A DNA stretch of 64,000 nucleotides from Alphaproteobacteria bacterium (lineage in GTDB: Bacteria > Pseudomonadota > Alphaproteobacteria > Micropepsales > Micropepsaceae), in the NCBI GenBank assembly GCA_028865545.1, contig JAGWJY010000008.1, positions 25,189 through 89,188 on the forward strand, read 5' to 3'. Both the position numbers and the translations under genes were made by a program. The notes below the pieces were generated by a model. The model searched no databases and was not told where the DNA came from. It saw only the letters and a list, made by a program, of their open reading frames with translations. Positions 1 through 19,463 of this stretch are shown piece by piece (positions within the stretch are counted from its first letter, which is position 1; every line of letters begins with the position of its first letter).

Positions 1-1
1 A

Positions 2-1579
2 AAAAGCGGCGGGCTTTTTGCGCCAATTTCCCGCGAGAGCGGCCTGCTGTTCAATAACCTTCTCCTGAGTATCGCCGCTGCCACAGTTCTGCTTGGAACG
101 CTTTACCCGTTGTTTGTCGACGCTCTAGGCCTTGGCAAGATTTCGGTTGGTCCGCCATATTTTGACAGCGTTTTTGTTCCGTTGATGGCGCCGATGATCC
201 TGGTCATGGCAATCGGGCCTTTTCTGTCCTGGCGGCGCGGCAATCTCAAAGACGCCTTGGCACGGCTGAAGCTCGCATTTGTCGTCACAGTTGTGACAAT
301 TGCCGCAACCCTAATGATCGCTGGTACCTCTTCGCGCACGCTCTGGGCATCGCTGGGATTTGGACTGGCGGCGTGGCTATTCTTCGGCAGTCTTATCGAG
401 TGGACCGGACGGATCGGGTTGTTCCGGCGCTCGCTGACCGAAGCAGTACATCGCGCCCGCCATTTGCCGCGGTCCGCCTATGGCATGACCATCGCACATA
501 TGGGGCTCGCGATTGTTCTGGCAGGCATCACCGGTTCTTTGGCCTGGAAGACCGAAATGCTCCAGGTCATGCGCCCCGGTGACAGCGTGATGGTATCTGG
601 CTATCAGCTCACATTCACCGGTGTCGACAATGATGTTAAAGGTCCAAATTACACCGCCTCACGCGCCACTTTCGTCGCCAGCAAAGACGGCCAGTTCGTC
701 GCCAAGATGCAGCCAGAGCGGCGCGTGTATGCGAACCCGCCACAAGACAAGTCGACTGTCGCCATTCATACCAACTTCGTTGACGACCTCTACGCGGTCT
801 TCGGGGAGCCGGACGGGAAAGGAGGCTTCGTCACACATTTCTTCCTAAACCCGCTAGTGCCGTGGATTTTCTTCGGTGCCGTAGTGATGGTTTTCGGCGG
901 CATTGTTTCGTTAAGCGACCGACGCCACCGTGTCGGCGCACCAATTAGGAAAGCTCGCGCTTCTCCGCATGACTCTTCAGCCGAGATGGCGCATCTTAAA
1001 ACAACCGCTGTGAAAAGGATGGAAAATAAAATTCTTCTGCGTGGTTGGGTCTACCTTGTGCCGCTGCTGGCGTTCATCGTCATGGCTGGCTTCTTCATTC
1101 ACCGCCTGCAATTGGTATCGGAAGGGGATGCGCCGAATTTTATTCCGTCGGCCATGATCAACAAGCCAGCGCCGGCGTTTAACCTGCCGCCTCTCTTGGT
1201 GGACAGACCAGGTCTCAAGACCGCCGACTTAAAAGGCAAAGTCACGCTAGTGGACTTCTTTGCATCATGGTGCGTGCCGTGCCGCCAGGAACACCCGGTC
1301 CTAAGACTCGTGACCCAGGCGGGCATCCGCCTCGTCGGCATCAACTACAAGGACAAACCGGCAGACGCCAAAGCTTGGCTCGCCGAGCTGGGTGATCCCT
1401 ACCAGGCAGTAGCCGTCGACGCGCACGGACAGACAGGAATCAATTTCGGGGTCTACGGCGTACCGGAATCCTATCTCGTCGACAAGAATGGCGTAATCCG
1501 CTTCAAGCAGACTGGCCCATTGACGCCAGAAGTCCTGCGGGAAAAATTGATTCCAATGGTAGAGAAGCTAAAGCAGTGA
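2..1579 (+). CDS. ccmF: CcmF-CcmG fusion, C-terminal part (copy A, 5' end outside window)
   Basis: The frame is open from base 2, so the gene starts to the left of the window; 525 codons are visible. The first part aligns by eye with the C-terminal half of CcmF, the membrane haem lyase subunit of cytochrome c maturation System I (GLLFNN, GPPYF and LPRSAYGMT blocks, also present in copy B at 5041-7641). Without a stop it runs into a transmembrane anchor (RGWVYLVPLLAFIVMAGFF) and a thioredoxin-like domain with CVPC at about visible residues 424-427 and the cis-proline block GVYGVPE. That is CcmG/DsbE, which reduces apocytochrome CXXCH thiols in the periplasm. CcmF and CcmG are usually separate genes. 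The stop overlaps the GTG of ccmH (GTGA). An internal start for a separate CcmG cannot be excluded, but the frame is continuous. Confidence 0.93.
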   Translation, partial: KSGGLFAPISRESGLLFNNLLLSIAAATVLLGTLYPLFVDALGLGKISVGPPYFDSVFVPLMAPMILVMAIGPFLSWRRGNLKDALARLKLAFVVTVVTIAATLMIAGTSSRTLWASLGFGLAAWLFFGSLIEWTGRIGLFRRSLTEAVHRARHLPRSAYGMTIAHMGLAIVLAGITGSLAWKTEMLQVMRPGDSVMVSGYQLTFTGVDNDVKGPNYTASRATFVASKDGQFVAKMQPERRVYANPPQDKSTVAIHTNFVDDLYAVFGEPDGKGGFVTHFFLNPLVPWIFFGAVVMVFGGIVSLSDRRHRVGAPIRKARASPHDSSAEMAHLKTTAVKRMENKILLRGWVYLVPLLAFIVMAGFFIHRLQLVSEGDAPNFIPSAMINKPAPAFNLPPLLVDRPGLKTADLKGKVTLVDFFASWCVPCRQEHPVLRLVTQAGIRLVGINYKDKPADAKAWLAELGDPYQAVAVDAHGQTGINFGVYGVPESYLVDKNGVIRFKQTGPLTPEVLREKLIPMVEKLKQ

Positions 1580-2079
1580 AACCTCGTTTCGGAATCCTTT
1601 CGGCCGCTGCCGTGTTTCTGCTGTTTGCCACAGATATGCACTACGCGGCTTTCGCCGTCGAACCCAGCGAGGTGCTTGCCAATCCGGTGCTCGAGGCCCG
1701 CGCCCGGGCCATTAGCAGCGAGTTGCGCTGCCTTGTCTGCCAGAATGAATCCATCGACGAATCGAACGCATCCTTGGCACATGATCTGCGCGTTTTGGTG
1801 CGCAAACGCCTTCTCGCGGGCGATAGTAATGAGCAGGTCAAGGAATACATCGTCGCCAGGTATGGCAATTACGTTCTGTTGAAGCCGCCCTTCATTGAAG
1901 AAACCTATGTACTATGGTTCGGGCCGCTGATCCTGCTACTGGGCGCGACGGCGGCGATCATTCTGTTTTATCGACGCCGCACCGGCCAGTCGTCGGAACC
2001 CACCCCTCTCACGGACGAAGAACGGCGCAGCCTGTCCCTCCTGCTCAGCAAATCTGATGAAAAAGAGGAAGCCCGCTGA
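1576..2079 (+). CDS. ccmH: Cytochrome c maturation protein CcmH (copy A)
   Basis: 167 residues: a signal or anchor segment at the N terminus, then the family signature LRCLVCQNESIDES, whose two cysteines act in thiol-disulphide exchange with apocytochrome c and CcmG. A C-terminal transmembrane helix (LWFGPLILLLGATAAIILFY) is followed by a charged tail. It starts with GTG overlapping the previous stop, and its TGA overlaps the ATG of the next gene, so the three genes are translationally coupled. Length and layout match the short CcmH of alphaproteobacteria, where the TPR part is a separate CcmI. It is paralogous to the copy at 4538-5044. Confidence 0.95.
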   Translation: MKPRFGILSAAAVFLLFATDMHYAAFAVEPSEVLANPVLEARARAISSELRCLVCQNESIDESNASLAHDLRVLVRKRLLAGDSNEQVKEYIVARYGNYVLLKPPFIEETYVLWFGPLILLLGATAAIILFYRRRTGQSSEPTPLTDEERRSLSLLLSKSDEKEEAR

Positions 2080-2957
2080 TGTATTGGATTGCGTTTGCTT
2101 TCCTCACAGTCCTTTGTGTTTCGGCTCTGCTCTACCCGCTTTTGCGCCGAAACCAATCGACTGCGCCAGCGCGTGCCGAATACGACAATCTCGTCTATAG
2201 CAGTCAGTTGTCCGAGATCGCGCAAGAGGTCGATCGCGGTGTATTGAGCCAGGAGCAGGCCGATGCGGCGCGTACTGAAATCCATCGCCGCATGCTATCG
2301 GCAGCTGCCGGAAACAAAAGGACGACTCATTCGGAGGGTAATCGTCGTGCACGCATAGCCGCTGCTGCAGTGATCGCCCTCCTCGTACCAGTAGGATCAG
2401 GCCTGTTATACAGCGCCCTAGGTTCTCCCGGTATGCCGGATCAACCTTATGCCGAACGGCTTAGACATGATCCCAACGTCATAATCGCGTCCACTGCGCA
2501 CAAGCTTGCAGTTCAGCTTGAAAATAAGCCATATGCAGGCGGCTATCAGCGCTTGGCGGAAATATATTTATATTTGAATGAATATGACCGTTCCGCGGCG
2601 GCCTATCAACGTGCCATAGACCTTGGCGACAACAACGCGGATATGTGGTCGCATTTGGGCGAGGCAATCGTTGCCGCAAACAGCGGAACAGTGGTGCCGG
2701 ACGCGTTAAGCGCTTTCACACATGCACTTGGCATCGATGCGAAGGAGCCACGGGCGCGTTATTATCTTGGCTTGGCCGCAGCTCAGGCTCACGAGCTGAA
2801 AACGGCGATCGCCATATGGCGCGATCTGGAAATGGACAGCACCGCCGACGCGCCCTGGCTCCCGCTCCTGCGCCAACGCATCACCGCTTACGCCAAGGCT
2901 GGCGGCTTTGACCCTGCAACAGTCCCTCCAGAGCCACCGCTTCTCAGCAAACCATGA
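2079..2957 (+). CDS. ccmI: CcmI-like TPR protein of cytochrome c maturation (copy A, short form)
   Basis: 292 residues. The N terminus is a transmembrane helix (YWIAFAFLTVLCVSALLYPLL) followed by the CcmI/NrfG block with QLSEIAQEVDRGVLSQEQADAARTEIHRRML, a second transmembrane helix near residue 100, and one set of TPR repeats (GGYQRLAEIYLYLNEYDRSAAAYQRAI). CcmI chaperones apocytochrome c to the CcmFH haem lyase. The protein stops after the first TPR set at FDPATVPPEPPLLSKP. The paralogue at 3088-4536 continues for about 190 residues with a second TPR region, so copy A lacks that C-terminal chaperone part. Start overlaps the ccmH stop (TGATG). Confidence 0.88.
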   Translation: MYWIAFAFLTVLCVSALLYPLLRRNQSTAPARAEYDNLVYSSQLSEIAQEVDRGVLSQEQADAARTEIHRRMLSAAAGNKRTTHSEGNRRARIAAAAVIALLVPVGSGLLYSALGSPGMPDQPYAERLRHDPNVIIASTAHKLAVQLENKPYAGGYQRLAEIYLYLNEYDRSAAAYQRAIDLGDNNADMWSHLGEAIVAANSGTVVPDALSAFTHALGIDAKEPRARYYLGLAAAQAHELKTAIAIWRDLEMDSTADAPWLPLLRQRITAYAKAGGFDPATVPPEPPLLSKP

Positions 2958-3087
2958 CCATCAAAACGAACTCTCCAAACACAGTCTGGATGATCACGAG
3001 CACGCTCCACTCTCAGGTCGTAACGCGCCCGGCGAATCCGCTTCCTGAGCCGGCGCCGCCGCCGACCTGAGCGATGTCCGGCCGCCG

Positions 3088-4536
3088 TCAATGCCCTTTG
3101 ATTTTTCCCGAAAGGATGTCCAAACGGTTGTGGATGCTGATGGCCAGCGGATCTGTCGGATCCGCCACAGATAGAGCCCTGTTCCAGAACAGGCGTGCGC
3201 GCTCCATGTGGCCTGCCTTCTGCTCCGCCAGTCCGACATAATAGAGGGCCTGCAGATTGGTAGGGTCGAGTTTCAGAACACCGCGCATGGTCCTGACATA
3301 ATCCGCCGGCGTGTCGTCGCCCGGTACGGCAGCAGACTTCTGGATTTCCGCAAGAGACAGCTGCACGCCAATATCGCCAGGCTTGAGCTTGACGGCGTGG
3401 TCGATCGCCGCGCGCGCTTTGTCGTGCTCGCCAAGTACGTTGTAGGCATGCGCCAGACGTTGCCAACCAGCCACATCACCGGGGTTCTTCGCCATGCGAT
3501 CCGCAAGCTTCGATACCATGGCGTGGATCATGGTGTCCTGATCATCCGTCGTCGACGTCGGCGCGGCGTCAGCACGCGCTTGGCTGTCCTTGACCGCAAG
3601 CGGGGTGGTGTTCAGGTGCATGGCATTGGTCATTGCAGTGACCGCCACATTCAGCGTCTTCGGTGACGGCGGGCTCGGGGGGACTGATGCCGGATCGAAA
3701 CCACCTTCCTTTGAGAAAGACGAAATATTCTCGCGTACCATCGGCAACCATGGCGCATCCGGAGGAGCGTCTTTTTCGAGATCGCGCCAGATCGCGACCG
3801 CCTGCTTCAGATTCCCGATCTGCGATTCAGCCAGACCGATGTAAAACCGCGCGCGGTTGTCGTGTGGATCGAGCGCCAGCGCATTGCTGAACGCCATCAA
3901 GGCCTCCGGCACAATTGCGCCGCCATTTGCCATAGCGACGGATTCCCCGAACTCGGACCAAGTGGCTGAGTCATTGGCACCGAGAGCAACCGCCTGACGG
4001 TCAGCGTCGGCGGCCTGATCGTAGTCGCGGGAATTGAAATACATCTCCGCTAGGCGCTTGTAACCAGACGCGCTTGGACTGTCCTTCAACAGGTCGGCCA
4101 GCTTTTCCGCCGTCGCGGCGACGACAAATTCTGGGTCATGTTTAAGACGCCAAGCATAGGGCTTTCCTGGTAGATTCGGAGAACCTAGCGCGCCATACAC
4201 TGCGACTGAACCGAGGGGCAAAATAAGAGCGATTGCCATAATTGCTGCGATGCGGGCGTGGCGGCTGTCCAATCGCACAGGTTTGACCGGCGCTTTGAGC
4301 TCAGCGTCTTCGGCTGCCAGCATGCGCCGGTGCACTTCTGCCCGCGCAGCAACAGCCTCGGTTTCGGTCAATAGACCGCGTTCGATCTCCTGCTCGATCT
4401 CTGCCAACTGATTGCGGTAAACAACGATGTCATAATCAACGCGCGGTGGCGCCTCCTCCGACTGCCTTTTCAAGAGCGGCAGAAGGAGTATCATTAGGAC
4501 GGCAAGCATCAACACCGCGAAAATCAGCCACAACAT
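3088..4536 (-). CDS. ccmI: CcmI, apocytochrome c chaperone (copy B, full length)
   Basis: 482 residues. It has an N-terminal transmembrane helix (LWLIFAVLMLAVLMILLLPLL), the typical EQEIERGLLTETEAVAARAEVHRRML coil, a second helix at about 110-130, a first TPR set, a linker, and a second TPR set (VAGWQRLAHAYNVLGEHDKARAAIDHAVKLKPGDIGVQLSLAEI). The role is delivery of apocytochromes to CcmFH. It begins one base after the ccmH stop (4538), so it belongs to the same transcript. It converges with copy A: the two ccmI stops are about 130 bases apart, and I see no intrinsic terminator between them. Confidence 0.93.
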   Translation of the reverse strand: MLWLIFAVLMLAVLMILLLPLLKRQSEEAPPRVDYDIVVYRNQLAEIEQEIERGLLTETEAVAARAEVHRRMLAAEDAELKAPVKPVRLDSRHARIAAIMAIALILPLGSVAVYGALGSPNLPGKPYAWRLKHDPEFVVAATAEKLADLLKDSPSASGYKRLAEMYFNSRDYDQAADADRQAVALGANDSATWSEFGESVAMANGGAIVPEALMAFSNALALDPHDNRARFYIGLAESQIGNLKQAVAIWRDLEKDAPPDAPWLPMVRENISSFSKEGGFDPASVPPSPPSPKTLNVAVTAMTNAMHLNTTPLAVKDSQARADAAPTSTTDDQDTMIHAMVSKLADRMAKNPGDVAGWQRLAHAYNVLGEHDKARAAIDHAVKLKPGDIGVQLSLAEIQKSAAVPGDDTPADYVRTMRGVLKLDPTNLQALYYVGLAEQKAGHMERARLFWNRALSVADPTDPLAISIHNRLDILSGKIKGH

Positions 4537-4537
4537 C

Positions 4538-5044
4538 TTACGTCCCTTTAGTTTCGCCGTCGGTGTTGCCGATCAAAGCGGCAAGACGCCGGGTTTCTTC
4601 GTCCGAAAGTTCTGCCGGCCCTACCGATTGCGTGGAGCGTCTATAATAAACCGCGGCAATGCCTGCCCCGCTCAGCAACAAGACCAGGGGGCCAAACCAC
4701 AGAAGATACGTTTCCGCATCGAATGGCGGCTTCAGCAGGACATAGTTGCCATAGCGGGCCACGATGTACTGCTTGACCTGCTGGTCCGTGTCGCCTGCAA
4801 CGATTCGCTTGCGCACGAGCAGTCGCAGGTCATGCGCCAAATCCGCATCGGAATCATCTATGGATTCGTTCTGGCAGACGAGACAGCGCAGTTGCTTATC
4901 GATGACACGGGCACGAGCTTCGAGCTTGGGATTGGTCAGCATCTCGTCTGGCCGTATCGCCCAAGCTGCACCGGCCGTACCCCACAGGGTTGCCAACAAA
5001 GCCATGTTCGCCAGAATTGCCGAGATTCGTTTGCGGTATCTCAC
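4538..5044 (-). CDS. ccmH: Cytochrome c maturation protein CcmH (copy B)
   Basis: 168 residues with an N-terminal export segment ending near AWA, the catalytic LRCLVCQNESIDDS motif and a C-terminal transmembrane helix (LLWFGPLVLLLSGAGIAAVYY). It is predicted to hold apocytochrome c cysteines reduced next to CcmF in the periplasm. The GTG start overlaps the TGA of the CcmF-CcmG gene (GTGA), exactly as in copy A, and the following ccmI starts one base after its stop. The conserved junctions show the two clusters arose by duplication or from a common cluster architecture. Confidence 0.95.
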   Translation of the reverse strand: MRYRKRISAILANMALLATLWGTAGAAWAIRPDEMLTNPKLEARARVIDKQLRCLVCQNESIDDSDADLAHDLRLLVRKRIVAGDTDQQVKQYIVARYGNYVLLKPPFDAETYLLWFGPLVLLLSGAGIAAVYYRRSTQSVGPAELSDEETRRLAALIGNTDGETKGT

Positions 5045-7641
5045 TTGCCCAATTTCTCCGCCAAGGGAATCAACTGGTTCTTGATGATGTCCGGCGTCAA
5101 CGGCCCCGTCTGCTTGAAGCGGATTACCCCGTTCTTGTCGATCAGATAGGACTCCGGCACACCATAGACCCCAAAATTGAGTCCGGTCTGGCCGTGTGCA
5201 TCTACGGCAACCGTCTTATAGGGGTCGCCCTGCTCCGCCAGCCAAGCTTTGGCGTCTTCCGCTCGGTCTTTGTAATTGATGCCAACCAGCACAATACCGG
5301 CCTTGGCGACCTCCGACAGATAGGGATGCTCCTCGCGGCACGGCACACACCATGAAGCAAAGAAATTGACCAACGTGACCTTGCCGCGCAGATCAGCGGT
5401 CTTGAAGCCGGGTTGCCCCGCCAGCAGCGGCGGCAAGTTGAATTGCGGCGCCGACTTGTTGACCATGACCGACGGGATCAGGTTCGGCGTATCACCTTCG
5501 GCGATCAGATGTATCCGCCAGATGAAGAAGCCGGCCAAAACGGCGAAGGCCAGAAGCGGCACGAGATAGGTCCAACCGCGCGAAGCCGCCCGCCGATCAG
5601 GTACTGCGGTGCGGGGTACTTCCGATTTCATTGCGGTCGCGGCGGCGAGTTTCATCGCGGGCGCAGAGATCTTCGCGCCAAGTCTGCGCAACGGCGCACC
5701 AACGCGGTGATGGCGATCCGTCAGGGAAACAAGGCCACCTAACACCAGCATGATTGCACCAAGGAATAGCCAAGGCACCAACGGATTGTGAAAAATGTGA
5801 ACGACGTACCCGCCACTGCCGTTGGGATCACCGAGAACCAGGTAAAGATCGCTGACGAAGTTCGTGTGGATTGCGACAGTCGACAGAGGCTGTTGCGGGT
5901 TCTCATACATCCGCCGCTCCGGCGTCAGATCGGTCACATAGCGGCCGTCCCTGGTGACGACAAAGCTCGCGCGCGTCGCCACGTAATTCGGCCCCTTGAG
6001 ATTGTCTTCCACGTCGATGAACCTGACGGTGTAGCCGGCGATCGCGGCAGTGTCTCCGGGGCGCATAACGTTGAGATATTCAGTCTTCCAAGCTTGCGAC
6101 CCGGTAATCCCAAGTAGCATGATCGCCAATCCCATATGGCTGATGGTCATGCCATAGGTGGACCGTGGCAGATGGCGAGCCCGGTGCAGCGCATCGCCGA
6201 GCGAGCGCTTGAACAGGCCTATCCTGCCTGCCCATTCCGAGAGGCTACCAAAGAATAACCACGCCGCCAATCCAAACCCGAGCGACGCCCACAGAGATCG
6301 CGAGGATACACCCGCGCCGATCCATACTCCGATGACGGCAACGACGGTCACGACAAACGTGAACTTCATTCGTGACAAGGCCGTCTTCAGATCACCGCGT
6401 TTCCACGATAGGAAGGGGCCGACAGCCATGAGCACGATCAACGGCACCATGAGCGGCACCATCACGATGTTGAAGTATGGCGGGCCGACAGAAACTTTGC
6501 CCAAGTTTAGGGCATCCGCGAACAGCGGGTACAGTGTGCCGAGCAGAACCGTGCCGGCGGCGGTGCTCAGAACGACATTATTAAACAGAAGCCCGCCTTC
6601 ACGCGAGACCGGCGTAAATAATCCGCCCCCCTTGAGCGACGGGGCACGAAAAGCGAATAGCGCCAGCGAACTGCCAGTGACTACGGCCAGAAGGGTTAGG
6701 ATGAAGATGCCGCGGGCTGGATCGCTGGCGAAACTGTGCACCGAGGTGAGAACACCAGAACGCACCAAAAACGTCCCTAGCAACGACAGCGAAAAGGTAA
6801 TGATCGCCAGGAAGATCGTCCACGACTTCATGGTGTCGCGCTTTTCCGCAACGATGGACGAATGCAGCAATGCCGTGCCGGCGAGCCACGGCATCAACGA
6901 AGCATTCTCGACAGGATCCCAGGCCCAATAACCGCCCCAACCGAGCGTGTAGTACGACCACCACATTCCCATGGCGACGCCAAGCGTCAGCGCGCACCAA
7001 GCAACCAGCGTCCAAGGCCGCACCCAGCGCGCCCAGGCCGCGTCGACCCGGCCTTCGATCAACGCCGCGATGGCAAAGGAGAACGCCATCGAGAAGCCGA
7101 CATAACCGAGATAGAGAAACGGCGGATGAAATGCGAGGCCTGGGTCCTGCAGCAGCGGGTTGAGACCGTTACCGTTCAGCGGTGCCGGATCTACACGTAC
7201 GAAAGGATTGGACGTAAGCAGGATGTACAGCAGGAAGCCGACAGCAATCATCCCCTGAACCGCCAGCGCGCGCGCGCGCAGCCCCGGCGGCAGGTCGCGC
7301 CCGAACACAGACACGGCTAAACCATAAAGTACCAAGATCAAGGTCCACAGCATCATGGACCCTTCATGGCTCCCCCACACCCCGGTGATCTTGTAGAGCA
7401 GCGGCTTGTCGGTGTGACTGTTCAGAACGACGTTCAGGACGGAGAAATCGCTCGTGATGTGAGCCCACATCAGCGCGCCGAAGGCGACAGCGACCAGGCA
7501 GAAGCTCGCGAATGCCGACGGCCGGTCCAGACTCATCCATGTCGAGTCACCGCGCGCCGCTCCCAGGAGCGGGACAGTCGCCTGAACGACCGACACAAAG
7601 AGTGCAAGAATCAGGGCAAAAAGACCGACTTCGGCAATCAT
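5041..7641 (-). CDS. ccmF: CcmF-CcmG (haem lyase / thiol reductase) fusion protein (copy B)
   Basis: 866 residues; CcmF alone is normally about 640-660. Residues 1 to about 650 are a polytopic CcmF with the VWGSHEGSMMLW block and the haem-handling WWD-type signature WGGYWAWDPVENASLMPW near residues 235-255. After a linker comes a transmembrane anchor (RGWTYLVPLLAFAVLAGFFIW) and a CcmG/DsbE thioredoxin domain with CVPC at 765-768 and GVYGVPE. Haem lyase and apocytochrome reductase are therefore tethered. The gene is the first of ccmFG-ccmH-ccmI and lies 267 bases downstream of the mtrB-like gene on the same strand, so it may share that operon's control. No ccmA-E is in the window. A small divergent difference from copy A is seen throughout. 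Confidence 0.95.
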   Translation of the reverse strand: MIAEVGLFALILALFVSVVQATVPLLGAARGDSTWMSLDRPSAFASFCLVAVAFGALMWAHITSDFSVLNVVLNSHTDKPLLYKITGVWGSHEGSMMLWTLILVLYGLAVSVFGRDLPPGLRARALAVQGMIAVGFLLYILLTSNPFVRVDPAPLNGNGLNPLLQDPGLAFHPPFLYLGYVGFSMAFSFAIAALIEGRVDAAWARWVRPWTLVAWCALTLGVAMGMWWSYYTLGWGGYWAWDPVENASLMPWLAGTALLHSSIVAEKRDTMKSWTIFLAIITFSLSLLGTFLVRSGVLTSVHSFASDPARGIFILTLLAVVTGSSLALFAFRAPSLKGGGLFTPVSREGGLLFNNVVLSTAAGTVLLGTLYPLFADALNLGKVSVGPPYFNIVMVPLMVPLIVLMAVGPFLSWKRGDLKTALSRMKFTFVVTVVAVIGVWIGAGVSSRSLWASLGFGLAAWLFFGSLSEWAGRIGLFKRSLGDALHRARHLPRSTYGMTISHMGLAIMLLGITGSQAWKTEYLNVMRPGDTAAIAGYTVRFIDVEDNLKGPNYVATRASFVVTRDGRYVTDLTPERRMYENPQQPLSTVAIHTNFVSDLYLVLGDPNGSGGYVVHIFHNPLVPWLFLGAIMLVLGGLVSLTDRHHRVGAPLRRLGAKISAPAMKLAAATAMKSEVPRTAVPDRRAASRGWTYLVPLLAFAVLAGFFIWRIHLIAEGDTPNLIPSVMVNKSAPQFNLPPLLAGQPGFKTADLRGKVTLVNFFASWCVPCREEHPYLSEVAKAGIVLVGINYKDRAEDAKAWLAEQGDPYKTVAVDAHGQTGLNFGVYGVPESYLIDKNGVIRFKQTGPLTPDIIKNQLIPLAEKLGK

Positions 7642-7908
7642 CCGTTCATATCCACGATAGTCCCATCAGGCATGGGAGATCCTACGGCGCTGATCTTTTG
7701 CCTAAGCCAGTCGGCCACGAAATGCGTAATAGTGCGTACGCTGCATCGCCCGACGCCCGGAGCGTATCACCTTGTTCAGACAAGAATTTTTGTCAGCTGC
7801 CGAACTGATAAAAGTGCAGGCAAAACGACCGACACCGACGATCGCGCTTTGTGTTGCGCAATCGCCGGTGCCGAATTACCCCCAGAGCAAACGCCCCCGG
7901 GTGGAAGG

Positions 7909-10275
7909 TCACAACTTCAAGGTCATGGCGGCCATGAAGGTGCTGACATCGTACTTGGCCGGCACATCGCCCGTCAGCACCTGGCCCACGGAAGCTCCAA
8001 CCAATGCCCAGTCGTTCATGTCCAAGCTGGTGAACTGGTAGCTGAAATAGAAGGAGGTGTTAGCCGAGTAGTCGTAGGTGGCGTGCACCTTAACCTGATG
8101 ATTTCCTGACGCCGTGGTGAGCAGCGGGTCGCCGCCATAGGTCTGCCCCGCTTCGCCGCTGGTCCATGAGCCGCTCTGAGCGAAGGCCTGGTCACCATAG
8201 GAGTAGATGTAATCCGCACCGAACTTCAGCTTGTCGTTCGCCCGCCACGTGCCACCGATGCCGGCGGTGTTGATGTCGTAGGTGGACGCCTCGCTGTAAT
8301 AGGTGCCGGGCGCCGTTGTACTGGTACCGTCGTTCAGCGCCCGCATGGCACGATAGGTTCGTAAGAAAGTGTAGTAAGCGTGCACTTCCTCATCCGGGCT
8401 AACTTGATACGACATGTCCGGTCCGGCCTGCACGCTGTAGTCGTGATTGATCCCAAGGCTAGGGTTCACCACGCCACTATAGGTAGCCTGTGGGCTGTGA
8501 TACTGATCATTGCTGTATTTGCCGAAGAAGCTAACAGACGTCTTCTGGCCGATCATACCGGACACCATGCCGGTGACAGCATCCTCGGTACGCGCGGCCT
8601 CATAGAAGGGAATCTGCTGGCACCCGAGGCTGTCGAGCGTGCTACCGCAGTCGGATGCGATCTGAACGAGCCATAGACTGTAGTCCGGGGTCGACGCTGT
8701 GCGATCGGAATGGACATAACCCAGCGAGCCGGTGATGCCGTTCGGCAGGGTTGAGTTGACCTTCACCGACTCCGCGTTTTCCTGCGTGTCGTGCGTGATC
8801 GCATTGCCGCGATGCTCATTACGATAGGTGTAACCGACGGTTACCCTTGTGGACTCAAGGACGTGATAGCCTGCGGTGAGTTCTACTTCCTGCTTAGTCC
8901 AGGATTCCGGCACAGCTTCACGATATTTGAACGATGTCGTGTCGGTCGGATCTCCGTATATCCACATTGCCTTCGTCTGCGGATCGCGCACATCGATCTT
9001 GTAGCTCGCTCGCACGTCCAATTTTGGGAGTGGTCTTGAACTCACAGCGACATTGCTGAAGAAGGTCTGCACCATGCCGTCCAGCGACCCAGGGTTCGAG
9101 GCAAGTTGCACAGCCAGCGCAGGGTTGCTGACGGCGTAGCCCATTTGCGTCGCCGCCGGGAATGGATCGTTCTGCAACTGGACACCGTATACCATGGTCC
9201 CGTACAGCCTGGTTGTCGGGCTTAGATTGTATCCGATTTCGCCAGTGACCGTGTGAGCCTGATTGCTCGGTGGCAATGCGTAGACGCCGGACTGCTGATA
9301 GCTTGTATAGTTATGCGTAACGGGGTCCTGAATCGCCGTGAAGTTCCAGCCCTCAAAGGCGTAGCCGCCTTTGTTATGGTCAATGAAATTGGAGTATTCG
9401 TAGGAGATCGAAGCTTGTAAGTCCGGCGTGGAATAGGCTGCCGACACGACATAGTTATCGGTGTCGTAGTCGATCGGCATCGGAAAGGTGACCATTCCGG
9501 TATTGCTGCCGCCAGTCGTCATTGACTGTTCGAGCGAACCTTCCTTATGTTCGCGGCTGGCCGAGGCGCTGAGCTTCCAGAAACCGAGATCATAGCTGCC
9601 GCTCACGGTGCCTTTGTCCCGACGAGTGCCGATCTGATAGGTCAGTTCAGTGGCCGGGCCATAGTCACCGACATGTGTGCCGGAGGATGACGTGATCCCA
9701 CTCCGCGTCCTGTAGCTGCCATAAAAGCTCGTCGAGGTTGGCGAGTTGTTGAGATAGGCGCCGTTGGCAGCGAGTGCCGCCGAATAGCCTGGCGCGAGGT
9801 TGCCTTCCTTGTCGAGGATTGTCGTGAAGTTGTCCGTCGCTGCGTACGTCATGGCATCATAAGACGCGGAGACGCTCCACTTGCCCTGTTCGCCGGTCTT
9901 TATATCGATCGACGCTTCGGGCGCAAATTTGCCGAAGCCGATATTCACGTTGTCGCCGGTGAATGTGAAGTAGTGCGTCCCACCGCTATCCCACGCGTCA
10001 CGGGTCCCAAGATTCCAGCTGCCAAGCACCCCGATGCCCGAGTTTGGCATGCCGTTGTACCGGCCAAAGGCGGCGGAGGGGTCCGACACCCCTCCTACTC
10101 CGATAGTGACTTCACCGATAGACGACGACGGGTTCTGTACTACGGTAGCTTGAGGCGTCGCCGGCGCGTCGGAGACATCGAAAGCATTACTGTCCTGGGC
10201 TTGTGCGGTCACCGTCAGCGGCAGCAGGCAGGCACTTGCGAGGGCCGCAGCTCTCAGCGTTTGGATCGTGTTCAT
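7909..10275 (-). CDS. MtrB/PioB-family outer-membrane beta-barrel (decahaem-associated porin)
   Basis: 788 residues with a clear Sec signal (MNTIQTLRAAALASACLLPLTVTAQAQ). The mature part is rich in alternating aromatic/polar strands typical of a large barrel (for example YVVSAAYSTPDLQASISYEYSNF, VTVGYTYRNEH) and ends in an aromatic-free MAAMTLKL strand. By family knowledge, MtrB/PioB sheaths a periplasmic decahaem cytochrome through the outer membrane so that electrons can leave or enter the cell. Its assignment rests on length, barrel pattern and its place 12 bases downstream of the decahaem MtrA-like gene. No N-terminal CXXC of the Shewanella MtrB type is seen. Alternative: another large barrel of unknown function. 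Confidence 0.85.
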   Translation of the reverse strand: MNTIQTLRAAALASACLLPLTVTAQAQDSNAFDVSDAPATPQATVVQNPSSSIGEVTIGVGGVSDPSAAFGRYNGMPNSGIGVLGSWNLGTRDAWDSGGTHYFTFTGDNVNIGFGKFAPEASIDIKTGEQGKWSVSASYDAMTYAATDNFTTILDKEGNLAPGYSAALAANGAYLNNSPTSTSFYGSYRTRSGITSSSGTHVGDYGPATELTYQIGTRRDKGTVSGSYDLGFWKLSASASREHKEGSLEQSMTTGGSNTGMVTFPMPIDYDTDNYVVSAAYSTPDLQASISYEYSNFIDHNKGGYAFEGWNFTAIQDPVTHNYTSYQQSGVYALPPSNQAHTVTGEIGYNLSPTTRLYGTMVYGVQLQNDPFPAATQMGYAVSNPALAVQLASNPGSLDGMVQTFFSNVAVSSRPLPKLDVRASYKIDVRDPQTKAMWIYGDPTDTTSFKYREAVPESWTKQEVELTAGYHVLESTRVTVGYTYRNEHRGNAITHDTQENAESVKVNSTLPNGITGSLGYVHSDRTASTPDYSLWLVQIASDCGSTLDSLGCQQIPFYEAARTEDAVTGMVSGMIGQKTSVSFFGKYSNDQYHSPQATYSGVVNPSLGINHDYSVQAGPDMSYQVSPDEEVHAYYTFLRTYRAMRALNDGTSTTAPGTYYSEASTYDINTAGIGGTWRANDKLKFGADYIYSYGDQAFAQSGSWTSGEAGQTYGGDPLLTTASGNHQVKVHATYDYSANTSFYFSYQFTSLDMNDWALVGASVGQVLTGDVPAKYDVSTFMAAMTLKL

Positions 10276-10287
10276 GCGACACCTATT

Positions 10288-11298
10288 TTAGCGGAAGAAG
10301 GTTGAGCCGCTGGGGCTATCCGAACCGTGGATCTGCGAGTGGCAGTTCAAGCAGCTGCGATCGCCGTAGAGATAGAGGCTCCCGCTGTGTGCTGCGACTG
10401 ACTGCTTCGACACGCCGACACCACCCATGTCATTCGTCGCCGCATGGCAATCGAGGCAAAGGAACGGCACCTTTTCCTTCAGCAGGCGCGGATTCACCGA
10501 GCCGTGCGGATTGTGGCAGTTGGTGCAGTCCTCACGAACCGGCTGGTGTTCCCATAGCATTGGGCCGCGCTTGTCCGCATGGCAGCTATAGCAAAGGTCC
10601 GTCACGCGAGCTTTCTTCAGAAGATCGCGGTTCGGTGACCCGTGCGGATTGTGGCAATCCGAGCACGCCACTTTACCCTCGCGGATCGGATGATGAGAGA
10701 ACTGCAACGTAAGCGCCCGCTGTTCCGCATGGCAGGAGAAGCATTTCTCGGGCTGTGTTGCCTTGACCAGGATTGGATCCTTTTTGACGTGGATCGTGTG
10801 GCAGCTCGTGCACGCCAGATTGTTATCCTGATGTTGGCTCCCGGCCCAATCCATTCGTAAGCCGTTCTGATGGCAACTGAGGCAGACCTCGTTGCGCGAA
10901 GATACTGGAGATGCATTAGGACCATTGAAGACGACGGCAGGTTCTGTCTTTTTCTGACCTGGGGCGGGAGCGCTCTCGACATGCGCCTCGCTGGGACCAT
11001 GGCAGGATTCGCATTCGTGCTGACCAAACGGTGACCGAGGGTCGCCTTTAGTGCCGTGTGGCGTTTGGAGAACATCCGTTATGGGCGATTGATCGTGACA
11101 CTTCATGCAAGTTGCGGCACCACGTGCGCTGTACAACGCACCGTTGGAGTCAGTGCTGGCAGGCGCCGCCGCAGCGGTCGCCTGTGGCGCCGCTGCCTGC
11201 GTCGCATCTGCTGCCGACGCTGGCTGTGCCGTGCCAAATATCAGGGCACAAAGCAAAACCAAGACGCCAAGGCCACTTAGGTGATTTATTTTTGTCAT
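10288..11298 (-). CDS. Decahaem c-type cytochrome, MtrA/PioA/DmsE family
   Basis: 336 residues from the ATG at 11298, chosen because it gives a clean signal peptide (MTKINHLSGLGVLVLLCALIF...ASA) and has GGGGA about seven bases upstream. There are ten CXXCH haem sites: CMKCH, CESCH, CLSCH, CTSCH, CFSCH, CSDCH, CYSCH, CTNCH, CLDCH, CLNCH. The repeated CxDCHNPHGS pattern is typical of MtrA/DmsE. It should be a periplasmic wire spanning the MtrB-like barrel. The second gene upstream codes for a tetrahaem quinol dehydrogenase, giving a quinol-to-outside path. No outer-surface decahaem protein (MtrC/OmcA type) is visible nearby. Confidence 0.95.
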   Translation of the reverse strand: MTKINHLSGLGVLVLLCALIFGTAQPASAADATQAAAPQATAAAAPASTDSNGALYSARGAATCMKCHDQSPITDVLQTPHGTKGDPRSPFGQHECESCHGPSEAHVESAPAPGQKKTEPAVVFNGPNASPVSSRNEVCLSCHQNGLRMDWAGSQHQDNNLACTSCHTIHVKKDPILVKATQPEKCFSCHAEQRALTLQFSHHPIREGKVACSDCHNPHGSPNRDLLKKARVTDLCYSCHADKRGPMLWEHQPVREDCTNCHNPHGSVNPRLLKEKVPFLCLDCHAATNDMGGVGVSKQSVAAHSGSLYLYGDRSCLNCHSQIHGSDSPSGSTFFR

Positions 11299-11335
11299 CT
11301 GCTTATCCCCTGCTCTATCGGGGCCCCCTGGGCGA

Positions 11336-12274
11336 TTATTTCTTTTCCACGACGAAATCGGCGTTGCCCTGATCAAGAATCAGAGAGCGTTCGAAGGACA
11401 CGTAGTGGAACCGTTTGGCGGTATGGCCCGCGTGTATCGCGAAGGCGACCGTGTACCGCTTGCCCGCCACGAGAGGCACAAAGCCAACGCCCGCGTCGAG
11501 CTTGCGCGACAGAGTCACCGACCATACGCCATCCTTGTAAGTGGCTTCAGCGGTGACGGCCGTCGGCTTTGTAGCCGCGAGCTTGTCGAAGATGACGCCG
11601 TTTTCCGCAGTTGCGGGAGAGCCCGGATTTAGGCGGGCCTGCCAGTATTCAAGCGAGTAGCCGTCAGCCTTAAGCTTCGCCAATGCATCTGCCGGCACCA
11701 ACGCATCACCACCGCCTTGACGCGTCAGATGGGCGCGAGTTTTTGGAAGATACATTGTGCGGTCGGAATTCCCGGCGCTTGGCATTCCAGCGGAATCATC
11801 ATGGCATGCGCCCCAGCAACCGGCCCGGTTGGCCTCGGGAACCCCACCGCCATCCAACATCATGGTGACCTTGGTGTCGTAGGCGCTATCCATCTTCGAA
11901 TTGGGCTGGCTCCCTTCGGAGAATTCGAGGTGGACATACATGTTTTGTGCATCGTGCTCGAACTGCACCTTTGCGTCGATCGAACCAGGTTTGCCAGGGA
12001 TCGGGGCCGCTTCGTTCTTCTTGCCCGAGACCAGCAGCGCACCCATGTTCTTTTCGTCGCCGATATGACAGGCCGCGCAGTCCTTGCCGGCGCGGAATTT
12101 CTCCGCGCCGGGATGGTCCGTCAGCACCCATTCCCAAGACGACTGTCCAGGATAAAAGAGCTGAACGTCCTTTGCCGGAACGCCCGACCAATTCGGTGCG
12201 GCCATCGCGGCCGAAAAGCTCATGGCACCTGCGATACCCAGCGCCGCGGTCATCGTTTTTGTAGAGAGTTTCAT
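11336..12274 (-). CDS. Dihaem cytochrome with ethylbenzene-dehydrogenase-like haem-binding domain
   Basis: 312 residues with a signal peptide (to about AMAA, residue 26). One classical haem site CAACH lies at 66-70, and a CX3CH site CWGACH at 153-158 is followed by DD. The C-terminal beta-rich part (GVWSVTLSRKLDAG...YTVAFAIHAGHTAKRFHYVSFERSL) resembles the haem-binding subunit family of ethylbenzene/DMSO dehydrogenases (EB_dh) that is often found with NapC-type cytochromes. It starts 10 bases after the tetrahaem cytochrome and ends 37 bases before the MtrA-like gene. It probably ferries electrons between the membrane quinol dehydrogenase and the decahaem protein. That role is inferred from position only. 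Confidence 0.82.
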   Translation of the reverse strand: MKLSTKTMTAALGIAGAMSFSAAMAAPNWSGVPAKDVQLFYPGQSSWEWVLTDHPGAEKFRAGKDCAACHIGDEKNMGALLVSGKKNEAAPIPGKPGSIDAKVQFEHDAQNMYVHLEFSEGSQPNSKMDSAYDTKVTMMLDGGGVPEANRAGCWGACHDDSAGMPSAGNSDRTMYLPKTRAHLTRQGGGDALVPADALAKLKADGYSLEYWQARLNPGSPATAENGVIFDKLAATKPTAVTAEATYKDGVWSVTLSRKLDAGVGFVPLVAGKRYTVAFAIHAGHTAKRFHYVSFERSLILDQGNADFVVEKK

Positions 12275-12284
12275 CGTCTTGTCC

Positions 12285-12923
12285 TCACTGAATATCGAAG
12301 CTGCTGCTGGAAGCCGGCTTTGCCGATGGATCCGCAGGTACGTGATGAGTGATGCCCTTGTGGCAATCGAGGCAATTTTCGTCGGTCTTCATCGCATCCG
12401 TGTGTTGGGCGCGAATACTCGGACGTTGGTCCTCAAGAACCATGTTTGCGTATTTGTGGCAGGCCTTACATTCTGCTGCGTTGTCCGCCTTGAAGCCGGC
12501 CCACACTCGCTTTGCCAATTCGAACCGACGCGCTTGAAATGCTTTCTTGACGCCATCGGGACCCTCACCCGCGAAGACCACGAAGTGTGTCCACAATTCC
12601 AAGCTCGCCATGGCCTTGCGACCTAGGACCGCCGGCCAGTTGTCGTGCGGAACGTGGCATTGGGCACAGACGACGACGACACCTTGCTCGTTCTTGTAAT
12701 GCTTGCTGTGCATGTACTCTTGGTAGACCGTGCTCTCCATCTCGTGACAAGTATGCGCGCAGAAGTTCAGCGAGCTCGTGTAGTCAAGAACGGTCGCGTA
12801 GCTGGCAGCCAAGCCAATCCCAACGAGCACCGACACGCCGGCAACGATGATGAACTTCGATCTGTTGCGTACGAACCCGCCGATACGCTGCGAGGCTGCA
12901 CGTAATTTTTCAACGACTGGCAC
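12285..12923 (-). CDS. NapC/NirT-family membrane tetrahaem c-type cytochrome (quinol dehydrogenase)
   Basis: 212 residues from a GTG preceded by GGGGA. A single N-terminal membrane anchor (FIIVAGVSVLVGIGLAASYATVL) is followed by four haem sites: CAHTCH (55-60, CX3CH), CAQCH, CKACH and CLDCHKGITH, the last being the usual NapC/NirT ending. Family members oxidise membrane quinols and pass electrons to periplasmic cytochromes; CymA plays this part in Shewanella metal reduction. It is the first gene of the cytochrome-porin operon, 185 bases after a MocR regulator on the same strand. The first motif has three residues between the cysteines rather than two. Confidence 0.92.
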   Translation of the reverse strand: MPVVEKLRAASQRIGGFVRNRSKFIIVAGVSVLVGIGLAASYATVLDYTSSLNFCAHTCHEMESTVYQEYMHSKHYKNEQGVVVVCAQCHVPHDNWPAVLGRKAMASLELWTHFVVFAGEGPDGVKKAFQARRFELAKRVWAGFKADNAAECKACHKYANMVLEDQRPSIRAQHTDAMKTDENCLDCHKGITHHVPADPSAKPASSSSFDIQ

Positions 12924-13031
12924 CTGCGTCCCCTTTCTTATTTGCGCGAAATGAATCTCTTCGCGATTAGGACGCGTGATATGTGGCAGCGCTCAATGGC
13001 AAGACGTAGTGCCAAGAGGGGCAAACTTGAT

Positions 13032-13047
13032 GATACCAGGGGGTATC
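13032..13047. promoter_or_regulatory. Inverted repeat GATACC-AGGG-GGTATC before the cytochrome operon
   Basis: A perfect 6-base inverted repeat with a 4-base centre sits about 110 bases upstream of the tetrahaem cytochrome start, in the 185-base gap after the MocR gene. Its ATACC...GGTAT form recalls operators of CsoR/RcnR-type metal or persulphide sensors, but no such regulator is in the window. It could equally be a small RNA hairpin. No FNR/FixK-type TTGAT-N4-ATCAA box was seen in this gap. Confidence 0.3.
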
Positions 13048-13108
13048 GCGCGAAAATGCCGCAATAATACGTAGTTACACGCATATAGCGTTCGCTAGGC
13101 CTTTAAAT

Positions 13109-14572
13109 TCAGGCGTTTAGAGTGTCAGCGAGCCGGGCGACACCCTGACGTAGCTGATCTGTCGTCAATGCCGCATAGCCAAGGATCAGCGCTCGATCAT
13201 GGAAGCGGCAGGTTTCCAAAGCGGCTAGATTCTCACACGTCACGCTTTCGACACTTGTGCCTTGTGCTCTAGCTGCATCGGATAGTGCGCGCGCCGACGG
13301 ATAGCGATCAGGAAGCAACCATGTCAGCTGTGTCCCGATTTCCGTACCTATCAACTCTATTTCGCCGAAGTGTTCCCGCAGTGCCTGAATAAGGCAGTCG
13401 CGACGATCCAAATAAATTTTGCGTACCCGGCGCAAGTGATGATCGTACTCTCCGCTCGTCAGGAGATCGGCTACGACCATCTGCTCCAACCATGGGCAGC
13501 AATCTTCCGCCATGGACTTTATTGCCGTGACGGCGTCAACAAATTCAGACGGTACCACGAGGTAGCCGATGCCAAGTCCGGCGCCAAGCGTCTTGGCAAA
13601 GGAGCCCGTATAGAAAACCAGCCCATATGGGTCGAGAGCAGCAAGCGGCTGGGGCGTCGTCCCGTGATAGCGATATTCGCTGTCGCTGTCGTCCTCTACA
13701 AGATAGGCACCCACATCACGAGCCCATTTAAGCAACGCGTTGCGCCGCGGCTGAGGCATCGTTCCGCCGAGCGGATTTTGCCGTGCGGGCGTGACATAGG
13801 CGATGGAGAAAGCCCCACGCGGTAATTTGTCGATATCCAAGCCATGCTCATCGACAGGAGCGTGAACTATGTCTGCGCCTCTGGCTTCAAAGAAGCTGGC
13901 CATATCGCGATCGCCAGGAGATTCCATAACGACACGATCGCCCCGACGCTGGAACAAATGCGCCACCAGGCTGCACGCCTGTCTCCGGCCGACCACGATT
14001 ATGACCTGCTCGGGCGACGCCATAATACCGCGCGTAGCTGCGAGGTAATCCACGATGACCTGCCTCAGAGACGCAACGCCGGCAGCGGGTTGGGATTTTG
14101 CGAGCCCGTCCGGTTCGCGCTCAAAGACGTTCCGCATGCCCTGAAGCCAAACCTTTGGAGGTAGCAAGTGACTGGCGTCAAATCGCAGAGGGCTGAAATC
14201 TATGATGCCGTCAGGAATGTCCGGATGTGGCACCACGGAACCGTGGAACAAGGCGGGATGTAGGGATGCCTGCCGGGGGACATCTGAAATCGAATTGTTC
14301 GTGAAAGCAGGCTTTGGCTGCTGAGGCGGCGTCGAACAGACAAAGGTGCCGATCGCCGGCCGCGTGTCGAGATACCCTTCACTGATGAGTCGCTCATATG
14401 CGAGGAGAACAGTCGTTCGCGACACGCCAACCTGCTCCGCCAGGAACCTTGTGGCGATGATGCGGGAGTTCGGCTTGAGCTTTCCGGTCAGAATCAGCTG
14501 CCGCAATTGCTCAAAGAGCTGATCCTGCAATGGGATCGACGCTCTGCGATCGAGCTGCAGCGGCAAATTCAT
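13109..14572 (-). CDS. MocR-type transcriptional regulator (GntR HTH + aminotransferase-like domain)
   Basis: 487 residues. Residues 1-75 are a GntR winged helix (LEQ-type ATRFLAEQVGVSRTTVLLAYERLISEGYL), followed by a fold-type I aminotransferase domain with the PLP-binding lysine in GSFAKTLGAGLGIGY (K327) and the aspartate-bearing AYLVEDDSDSEYRY. MocR proteins sense PLP or amino-compound metabolism (PdxR, GabR and others). The effector cannot be told from sequence. Its neighbours, a cytochrome operon downstream on the same strand and a sugar dehydrogenase on the other side, give no obvious target. It may regulate itself or the adjoining operon. Confidence 0.9.
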   Translation of the reverse strand: MNLPLQLDRRASIPLQDQLFEQLRQLILTGKLKPNSRIIATRFLAEQVGVSRTTVLLAYERLISEGYLDTRPAIGTFVCSTPPQQPKPAFTNNSISDVPRQASLHPALFHGSVVPHPDIPDGIIDFSPLRFDASHLLPPKVWLQGMRNVFEREPDGLAKSQPAAGVASLRQVIVDYLAATRGIMASPEQVIIVVGRRQACSLVAHLFQRRGDRVVMESPGDRDMASFFEARGADIVHAPVDEHGLDIDKLPRGAFSIAYVTPARQNPLGGTMPQPRRNALLKWARDVGAYLVEDDSDSEYRYHGTTPQPLAALDPYGLVFYTGSFAKTLGAGLGIGYLVVPSEFVDAVTAIKSMAEDCCPWLEQMVVADLLTSGEYDHHLRRVRKIYLDRRDCLIQALREHFGEIELIGTEIGTQLTWLLPDRYPSARALSDAARAQGTSVESVTCENLAALETCRFHDRALILGYAALTTDQLRQGVARLADTLNA

Positions 14573-16555: not shown

Positions 16556-17713
16556 ATGCTAGGGATCGGTATTTCGCGAGCCAGCTTTACAGGGGTCGCG
16601 CTCGCAATGCTGGCGACGACAGGTTTCGCATACGCGAAGGACGCAACAATGTCTCATATCCAAAAAGCACAGTTTGGACACACACCAGACGGCAAGGCCG
16701 TTGAAATCTACACGCTGACAAACAAAGGCGGCCTGGAAGCACGCGTCATGACCTATGGCGCCACGCTGGTGTCGCTGAAGGCTCCGGACCGCAGCGGACA
16801 TCTGGCTGACATCGTCCTCGGCTTCGACTCGCTTGAACCCTATGTGACTGGGGTGCCGTATTACGGCGCCACGATCGGTCGCTACGCCAACCGCATCGCC
16901 AATGGCCGCTTTACCCTAGACGGTGTCAGCTACCAGCTACCGAAGAATGACGGACCCAATAGTCTGCACGGCGGCGACAAAGGGTTCGACAAACGTGTCT
17001 GGACTGCACAATCCGTCGAAGCCAAGAACGGTCCAGAGCTCAAACTCACCTACGTCAGCGCGGACGGTGAAGAAGGCTATCCCGGCCAACTTACGATCCA
17101 CGTCACCTACCAATTGCGGAACGACAACGCGCTCAGTATCGAATATCAGGCGACCACCACCAAGCCAACGCCCGTCAACTTCACCAACCACTCTTATTTC
17201 AACCTATCGGGTGACTTCAATCGTGACATCCTGCACGACGTGCTGATGATCAATGCAGACAAGTTCACGCCGGTCAACGCGACGCTGATCCCCACTGGTG
17301 AGTTGCGCCCGGTGGCTGGCACGCCATTCGATTTCCGCAAGCCAACGGTTATCGGGGCGCGCATCAATGACGATAATGAGCAGCTTCACTATGCGCATGG
17401 TTATGATGATAACTGGGTTCTGGTGAAGACACATCCGAATGCGATGTCGACGGCGGCCGTGCTGTCTGATCCGGAGACAGGCCGCGTGGTGGAAGTCCGC
17501 ACGACGGAACCTGGAATCCAGTTCTACACGGGCAACTTCCAGGATGGTAAACCGGCCGGCAAAGGCTCGGTCTACAAATACAGAACCGGACTGACGCTGG
17601 AGACACAGCACTTCCCGGATTCACCCAATCAACCGTCGTTTCCCTCAACGATCCTCCGATCGGGCCATCCCTTCGTTTCGCATACGGAGTTCATCTTCCG
17701 CACGGAGAAATAA
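16556..17713 (+). CDS. galM: Aldose 1-epimerase (mutarotase), exported
   Basis: 385 residues. ATG is preceded by AAGGAGGAAG at ideal spacing. An N-terminal signal peptide (ISRASFTGVALAMLATTGFAYA) makes this the periplasmic type of mutarotase, unlike the cytoplasmic E. coli GalM. Family landmarks are GRYANRIANGRF, the histidine in NFTNHSYFNL and the catalytic glutamate in LTLETQHFPDSPNQPSFP. It interconverts alpha and beta anomers of galactose, arabinose or glucose, so that released sugars reach transporters and the 1-dehydrogenase in the right form. It is a single gene closed by a strong terminator at 17737-17766. Confidence 0.95.
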   Translation: MLGIGISRASFTGVALAMLATTGFAYAKDATMSHIQKAQFGHTPDGKAVEIYTLTNKGGLEARVMTYGATLVSLKAPDRSGHLADIVLGFDSLEPYVTGVPYYGATIGRYANRIANGRFTLDGVSYQLPKNDGPNSLHGGDKGFDKRVWTAQSVEAKNGPELKLTYVSADGEEGYPGQLTIHVTYQLRNDNALSIEYQATTTKPTPVNFTNHSYFNLSGDFNRDILHDVLMINADKFTPVNATLIPTGELRPVAGTPFDFRKPTVIGARINDDNEQLHYAHGYDDNWVLVKTHPNAMSTAAVLSDPETGRVVEVRTTEPGIQFYTGNFQDGKPAGKGSVYKYRTGLTLETQHFPDSPNQPSFPSTILRSGHPFVSHTEFIFRTEK

Positions 17714-17736
17714 GCCGATCAATTCTACGAAAACGA

Positions 17737-17766
17737 CAGGAGCGGCTTTCGCCGCTCCTGTTTTTT
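17737..17766 (+). terminator. Intrinsic terminator after galM
   Basis: A perfect 10-base stem, CAGGAGCGGC / GCCGCTCCTG, with a TTTC loop is followed by six T. It ends 40 bases before the stop of the convergent GH51 gene. Confidence 0.95.
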
Positions 17767-17805
17767 CCGTGCAGCAGCCAGAACAGTCCCGCTTGATCGT
17801 TTGCT

Positions 17806-19442: not shown

Positions 19443-19463
19443 GCGCTTCGACCTGAAGCGCTC

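Follow-up and report, generated by a model that had tools for sequence, protein, structure and literature searches.

A CcmFG-CcmH-CcmI set conserved beside an MtrAB-type conduit in a genus of Micropepsaceae: probably a general cytochrome c synthetase

The 64,000-nucleotide stretch analysed here (the window) is part of contig C26 (JAGWJY010000008.1) in the draft genome of an alphaproteobacterium of the family Micropepsaceae (3.4 Mb, 95.7% complete). Seven minus-strand genes run from napC at 12923 to ccmI at 3088 and were assigned by profile searches to a NapC protein, an EB_dh dihaem cytochrome, an MtrA/DmsE cytochrome, an MtrB/PioB porin, a CcmF-CcmG fusion, CcmH and CcmI (Table 1). We consider it probable that they form two adjacent units, a conduit operon and a ccmFG-ccmH-ccmI set (copy B) that would be a general cytochrome c synthetase kept beside the conduit and not a lyase for special haem sites. 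An initial annotation, made from the letters alone, had named the same genes on one strand and asked whether copy B is a haem lyase dedicated to this module. The gene identities are borne out by the profiles, and the separate ccm set that it placed tail to tail at 1-2957 (copy A) is real, with a ccmFG that starts before the window. Its count of haem sites agrees with the motifs: MtrA, the dihaem protein and NapC contribute 10 + 2 + 4 = 16, of which 14 are CX2CH and two CX3CH. The gaps between the genes, given there as 12-267 bases, range in fact from a 4-base overlap (ccmH/ccmFG) through one base (ccmI/ccmH) to 267 bases (mtrB/ccmFG). The MtrAB/PioAB assignment follows from adjoining genes that score above the cut-offs of TIGR03508 and TIGR03509, and that to System I from the LRCxxC motif of CcmH, the WCxxC motif of CcmG and the TPR domain of CcmI.

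A TIGR03508 match above cut-off was found in 13 of 120 relatives, the window genome counted. In ten of these (G000, G031, G048, G009, G051, G029, G053, G010, G021 and G026; the linked genomes) MtrA shares at least 56% identity with that of the window, and each of the ten carries CcmFG of one and the same lineage behind mtrAB. The synteny comparison suggested by the initial annotation, for which absence from related genomes was the adverse outcome, thus found the arrangement in every relative with such an MtrA. The linked CcmFG lies on the contig of mtrA in nine genomes; in G029, at a contig end, a fragment of mtrB precedes it. The number of independent cases is below ten, since several of the genomes are closely related (G010/G026; G000/G031). 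The mtrAB pair in front of ccmFG varies (identity of mtrB to that of the window, 29-87%), and G053, G010, G026 and G048 have a gene for a small monohaem cytochrome between mtrB and ccmFG; the ccm lineage is constant. The other three genomes (G045, G069, G011) have a differing MtrA, 38-40% identical to the window's, with no ccm match within the 15-20 kb examined, and none was found over the same distance from the extra MtrA loci of G051 (C6) and G048 (C48). G043 (79% complete) has no MtrA match and carries copies A and B tail to tail, B being cut by a contig end. A conserved, non-random association of ccm and conduit genes in the genus is supported by these data.

Four of the ten genomes have no TIGR00353 match other than the linked CcmFG: G053 (one contig, 99% complete), G021 (95%), G010 (92%) and G026 (82%), System II (ResB) being outside the search. 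Their other PF01578 matches are CcmC-sized frames only, and cytochrome c1 is present in each. The cluster of G053 reads mtrA-mtrB-monohaem cytochrome-ccmFG-H-I-C-E-A-B, a full System I behind the conduit. Because this single-contig relative has the conduit-side set only, the linked set is likely a general machine, not one reserved for special sites. The second ccm set behind a porin-cytochrome operon, as seen by the initial annotation, is confirmed and its position conserved; its dedication to the module is not supported. The linked CcmF is found beside, not instead of, another CcmF in the window genome; this does not hold across the lineage. Nor does it travel with a cytochrome bearing an unusual haem site. 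No relative of the CX3CH NapC was found in five linked-set genomes (G053, G010, G026, G009, G051), other CX3CH proteins not having been searched genome-wide, while G007 has CX3CH NapC and EB_dh genes, one CcmFG, which is unlinked, and no MtrA match. CX3CH sites as the reason for a second ccm set were rejected, since the linked set and the CX3CH NapC each occur where the other is missing; the initial suggestion that copy B serves these sites is unsupported. According to PMC6295460 (accessible part of the text), ImcH and the CymA homologues of R. ferrireducens have CX3CH sites as well. Copy B passed the cut-off of the NrfE subfamily model NF007691 (445.3 vs 394) and missed those specific for NrfE, NrfF and NrfG (TIGR03145, 629 vs 927.3; TIGR03147, 84 vs 159.2; NF007692, 38.2 vs 306).

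Two CcmF and one CcmC were found in the window genome. Copies A and B are 73% identical in CcmFG, 62% in CcmH and 49% in CcmI. All 123 near-invariant CcmF columns of an 80-row alignment are intact in both; they include the WWD-type motif GWGGYWAWD and H172, H260, H302 and H502, which we take to be the haem-ligand histidines. Only five residues are fixed between linked and unlinked fused CcmF rows. Copy B gives dN/dS values of 0.08-0.12 (FG), 0.16-0.18 (H) and 0.08-0.17 (I), and copy A gives 0.06-0.08 for CcmFG; the values are rough, dS being near 1, and indicate that both copies are under purifying selection. Copy A as a recent duplicate of B is unsupported: copy-A-type, other unlinked (U) and linked rows form three clades whose order is not settled (p value of the approximately unbiased test, p-AU, 0.177 for A+U and 0.335 for M+U).

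The mtrB-ccmFG gap holds a feature missed by the initial annotation, a 19-bp hairpin with a T-rich tail that resembles an intrinsic terminator. Its stem is the longest among 17 terminator-like sites in 2900-13300 (shuffle mean 8.6), and none of 100 shuffles reached a folding energy (dG) as low as its -35.8. The corresponding gaps of G031, G021, G029, G053, G010 and G026 also contain long hairpins, which differ in sequence (0-4 of 100 shuffles as low); this makes seven of the ten linked loci, window included; five of the seven have a T-run. A type I mtrB of G048 without a ccm gene behind it likewise ends in a hairpin (2/100 shuffles as low). The hairpins make a single seven-gene transcript, on which the idea of dedication draws, doubtful. 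The conduit operon would likely be terminated here, the ccm genes being reached by read-through or having a promoter of their own. The gap also carries a TACGCA direct repeat. Similar repeats precede ccmFG in seven of the ten linked loci (not G009, G010, G026) and in none of eight unlinked fused loci, counts to be read knowing that the motif was derived from the same linked loci, several unlinked gene starts are approximate and the shuffles were mononucleotide. The repeat count in the window is not significant (three matches; 21/100 shuffles had as many). A one-mismatch copy before napC (13068-13084) is not kept in the alignment of five napC upstream stretches, the genome-wide search gave nine sites with at most one mismatch vs four for the reversed control, and the other exact site (C68) is not near cytochrome genes. 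On these grounds the repeat was rejected as evidence for a shared operator or regulon of the conduit and ccm units.

The typical CcmF of the genus is unfused, about 660 amino acids (aa) long and 45-52% identical to that of the window. The CcmF tree comprises 67 of 80 extracted rows (13 dropped on size), the 80 coming from 79 loci and not from every locus fetched. Fused CcmFG proteins form a clade of 18 rows (support 100) beside a Telmatospirillum metagenome-assembled genome (96), and 27 unfused rows of the genus stand apart from it (86, below the star line). In both of two trees the ten linked rows fall into a single clade (98; 100/99 with full-length rows and a mixture model), and the linked ccm cluster apparently has a single origin. 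Two further groups belong to the fused clade, the copy-A-type rows (G000, G031, G043) and the other unlinked rows (G007, G032, G038, G042, G048); G058, fused by the length rule, falls outside it on a long branch. The tree fits import from a Rhodospirillales-like donor, its deep branches being weak. Two unfused CcmF are present in five genus members (G016, G001, G034, G036, G068), the second one branching with the single CcmF of G045; that of G016 (C1:1094000-1113500, L176) lies about 11 kb from a weak multihaem match and is perhaps an Nrf-like lyase.

If copy B is a general synthetase, the NapC-dihaem-MtrA-MtrB operon would have a ready supply of haem-ligation capacity in the neighbouring ccm set. 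CcmFG-H-I would load not only MtrA, NapC and the dihaem protein but also ordinary cytochromes, haem being delivered to it by the single CcmC and a putative CcmE, and copy B would overlap functionally with copy A in the window genome. A Rhodospirillales-like donor may have been the source of the ccm cluster, which would then have taken the place of the genus's own unfused CcmF in several lineages; the linkage would persist since conduit and maturation capacity are useful together. Several observations weigh against this picture. Three of the four genomes with a sole CcmF (G010, G021, G026) are drafts. Six of the ten keep a further CcmF, fused in G000, G031 and G048 and unfused (native) in G009, G051 and G029, so specialisation is possible in those six. 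The import step relies on the weak deep branches (Shimodaira-Hasegawa-like approximate likelihood-ratio support, SH-aLRT, 83-96), and linked-set CcmI differs from unlinked-set CcmI in domain content (see below). Concerning the separation into two units, no sigma-70-like promoter was detected in the window's 267-base gap; the long hairpins of G031 and G021 have no T-run; the gap stem of G048 is short and, though followed by a T-run, no better than shuffles (95/100 as low); and two of the ten loci have no gap hairpin (G009, 7/100 shuffles as low; G051, 58/100). With no promoter found, and gap hairpins absent, weak or without a T-run in some loci, read-through or co-transcription is possible.

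Of the alternatives, the one that survives best, and that we still regard as unlikely, is hitch-hiking: copy B would be a leftover of duplication or transfer behind mtrB with no functional tie to the conduit, and the linkage would reflect shared descent of one insertion. The linked rows being one clade, a single linkage event may explain all ten loci, and the hairpin that separates conduit and ccm units suits this explanation. So does the wider survey. TIGR03508 scored above cut-off in 5 of 385 genomes of the class and 27 of 398 of the phylum, and of the 29 genomes among these that lie outside the genus just one (G708) has CcmF within 10 kb of MtrA; in G186, a genome with two CcmF, the distance is 17.6 kb. 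An ancient phylum-wide ccm-mtr linkage was not seen; among the 29, G575 has no CcmF match and many are drafts, so contig ends could hide linkage. Against hitch-hiking, the linkage outlasts replacement of the adjoining mtrAB pair and of neighbour genes, both copies appear to be under purifying selection and the linked CcmFG is the sole CcmF found in four genomes; in a separate case, G708, mtrAB also stands among ccm genes, and more cases are reported in the accessible part of PMC8805035. In G708, a distant member of the phylum (L248, C68:47000-66000), mtrA-mtrB and a TetR-like gene stand between a ccmB-like gene and ccmC-E-F-G, an association apparently independent of that in the genus. On these counts few genomes overall show the linkage, this lineage shows it throughout, and it has also arisen outside the lineage.

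The two copies differ most visibly in CcmI. A second TPR domain is present in 10/10 complete linked-type proteins (473-493 aa; copy B of G043 included, the linked CcmI of G031 being in two halves on two contigs) and lacking in 3/3 copy-A-type and 5/5 other unlinked ones (292-303 aa); the profile of this domain was trained on the linked rows themselves. The stretch behind ccmI of copy A showed no remnant of it. In the outgroup, with 59 CcmI rows, the domain is full in 29, partial in 23 and absent in seven. As it is full or partial in 52 of 59, the domain was probably lost from the unlinked copies, and is probably ancestral and not a conduit adaptation; if either copy is derived in CcmI domain content, then it would be A, the opposite of what the initial annotation assumed. 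TPR domains of CcmI and NrfG are reported to bind apocytochrome C-termini (PMC3884852, accessible part). One possible reading, to which we give little weight, is a conduit island that took over maturation in part of the genus: a Rhodospirillales-type CcmF-CcmG cluster behind mtrAB would have supplanted the native CcmF of several lineages and retained a two-TPR CcmI serving decahaem apocytochromes, while conduit-free paralogues dropped that domain. If so, copy B of the window genome would be for large multihaem clients and the trimmed copy A for small ones. A division of labour by chaperone, with the same chemistry in both copies, two-TPR CcmI_B for long multihaem apocytochromes and one-TPR CcmI_A for small ones, seems a little less probable again. 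The domain distribution and the reported binding of C-termini favour it; on the other side, the pattern may be a single event, given three clades without settled order, the domain is probably ancestral, its function is putative, and its profile was trained on linked rows. The genus offers a natural experiment, in which the same CcmFG lineage occurs as sole synthetase, as second copy and unlinked, and CcmI with and without the second TPR domain, so any role of this domain for multihaem apocytochromes is directly testable.

Mtr-type conduits perform poorly in heterologous hosts partly since haem ligation is limiting, and natural clusters with a synthetase of their own thus show which genes accompany a functional conduit. 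Rhizomicrobium electricum is exoelectrogenic. Among titles and abstracts, in a search whose coverage left out most subscription journals, no publication on the present arrangement in Micropepsaceae was found. Shewanella MtrAB and DmsEF also pair a decahaem cytochrome with an MtrB/PioB porin. The same pairing is described for Rhodopseudomonas PioAB (PMC6831781, accessible part); unlike PioAB and MtrAB/DmsEF, the window conduit has napC and an EB_dh-type dihaem gene in front of it and ccmFG-H-I behind it. The accessible part of Baker et al. (mBio 2022; PMC8805035) describes six mtrCAB clusters that adjoin complete ccmA-I operons, and a further two whose ccm operons are partial because contig ends interrupt them. 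It includes a single alphaproteobacterial MtrCAB, finds no duplicates of the System I genes in those assemblies and proposes the ccm genes to be passengers of conduit transfer. As in those clusters, System I genes stand here beside an MtrAB-type conduit, and in G053 the full set adjoins it and is the sole one found. Unlike them, the window has only ccmFG-H-I by the conduit, a second copy in the genome, a CcmF-CcmG fusion, no MtrC-family match and a hairpin between the units, and it is alphaproteobacterial. With ccmA-I beside mtrCAB already published, the present case is therefore a variant: partial, duplicated, alphaproteobacterial and sometimes the cell's sole CcmF. Like E. coli NrfEFG and Shewanella SirEFG (PMC6976685, accessible part), it places extra CcmF/CcmH/CcmI-like genes near anaerobic-respiration cytochromes, with TPR domains in the CcmI/NrfG part. 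According to that text, NrfEFG and SirEFG serve CXXCK or CX12NKGCH sites beside a general set; the linked lineage, in contrast, is the sole CcmF found in some relatives and falls below the NrfE-specific cut-off. That copy B works only or mainly for its module, including the two CX3CH sites, as NrfEFG and SirEFG do for their clients, is for us the most improbable explanation: a genome with two complete sets of ligation genes, the close linkage across short gaps and the existence of such lyases speak for it, and the sole CcmF beside cytochrome c1 in four genomes, the mutual independence of linked set and CX3CH NapC, the CX3CH sites of CymA and ImcH homologues, the undiverged near-invariant columns and the gap hairpin speak against it.

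Within the conduit operon, the CX3CH site of NapC is kept in 4/4 aligned orthologues and in the relative of G007. For mtrA the ATG at 11298 is the more likely start, because a TTG start at 11376 would overlap the EB_dh gene. The MtrC family (TIGR03507) had no match in the ten linked genomes, and as control genomes also gave none above cut-off the sensitivity of this search is not established; a surface cytochrome of a family other than MtrC/OmcA may be present. The MocR/PdxR-type gene adjoins napC in the four type I loci that cover this stretch (G031, G048, G029, window) and was not seen in G021. A block upstream of napC (TTGCGGCA..., CTGGTATNATC, TGGCNCTACG; 12924-13108 in the window) is conserved in 5/5 type I loci (window, G031, G021, G048, G029) and may be bound by the MocR-type regulator encoded next to it or by a different factor.

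Table 1. Genes and sequence features of the two ccm sets, the conduit operon and their surroundings (positions in the window).
Feature	Position	Strand	Remarks
ccmFG copy A, 3' part	1..1579	+	gene start ~1 kb before window; whole gene L004 9138-11768
ccmH copy A	1576..2079	+	PF03918 164.1 bits
ccmI copy A	2079..2957	+	292 aa, single TPR domain; TIGR03142
ccmI copy B	3088..4536	-	482 aa, two TPR domains; TIGR03142, PF23914
ccmH copy B	4538..5044	-	LRCLVC; PF03918 168.6 bits
ccmFG copy B	5041..7641	-	CcmF synthetase fused to DsbE/CcmG thioredoxin (WCVPC); PF16327 + PF01578; TIGR00353 629 bits; TIGR00385 174 bits
TACGCA direct repeat	7722..7738	-	10-base period; 97 bases before ccmFG
Intrinsic-terminator-like hairpin, mtrB/ccmFG gap	7829..7874	-	19 pairs, 12 G-C, T-rich tail TCGTTTTGCC
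mtrB/pioB outer-membrane porin	7909..10275	-	PF11854 275 bits; TIGR03509 250.5 bits (cut-off 240.05)
mtrA/DmsE-type decahaem cytochrome	10288..11298	-	TIGR03508 311.6 bits (cut-off 192.2); 10 CX2CH
EB_dh-like dihaem cytochrome	11336..12274	-	PF09459 109 bits; 1 CX2CH + 1 CX3CH (CWGACH); orthologues aligned
napC-type tetrahaem quinol dehydrogenase candidate	12285..12923	-	GTG start; NapC/NirT PF03264 161 bits; 3 CX2CH + 1 CX3CH (CAHTCH)
MocR/PdxR-type regulator, upstream of napC	13109..14572	-	NF052282 367.7 bits

Type II clusters have a Flavodoxin_5 (PF12724) gene before mtrA (G053 L123:10788-11333; similar frames in L124, L119 and L121). It is probably HemG-like, so genes for haem synthesis, conduit and maturation would stand together in these clusters. 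In G053 (L123:15186-17150), genes for a nine-haem cytochrome and a cytochrome b561 diverge from the mtrAB-ccm cluster and may replace napC as the quinol entry point in type II clusters. Beyond the cluster, positions 16556-33864 of the window have the appearance, from translations only, of an arabinose/arabinan utilisation neighbourhood with epimerase-, arabinofuranosidase-, kinase- and transporter-like frames.

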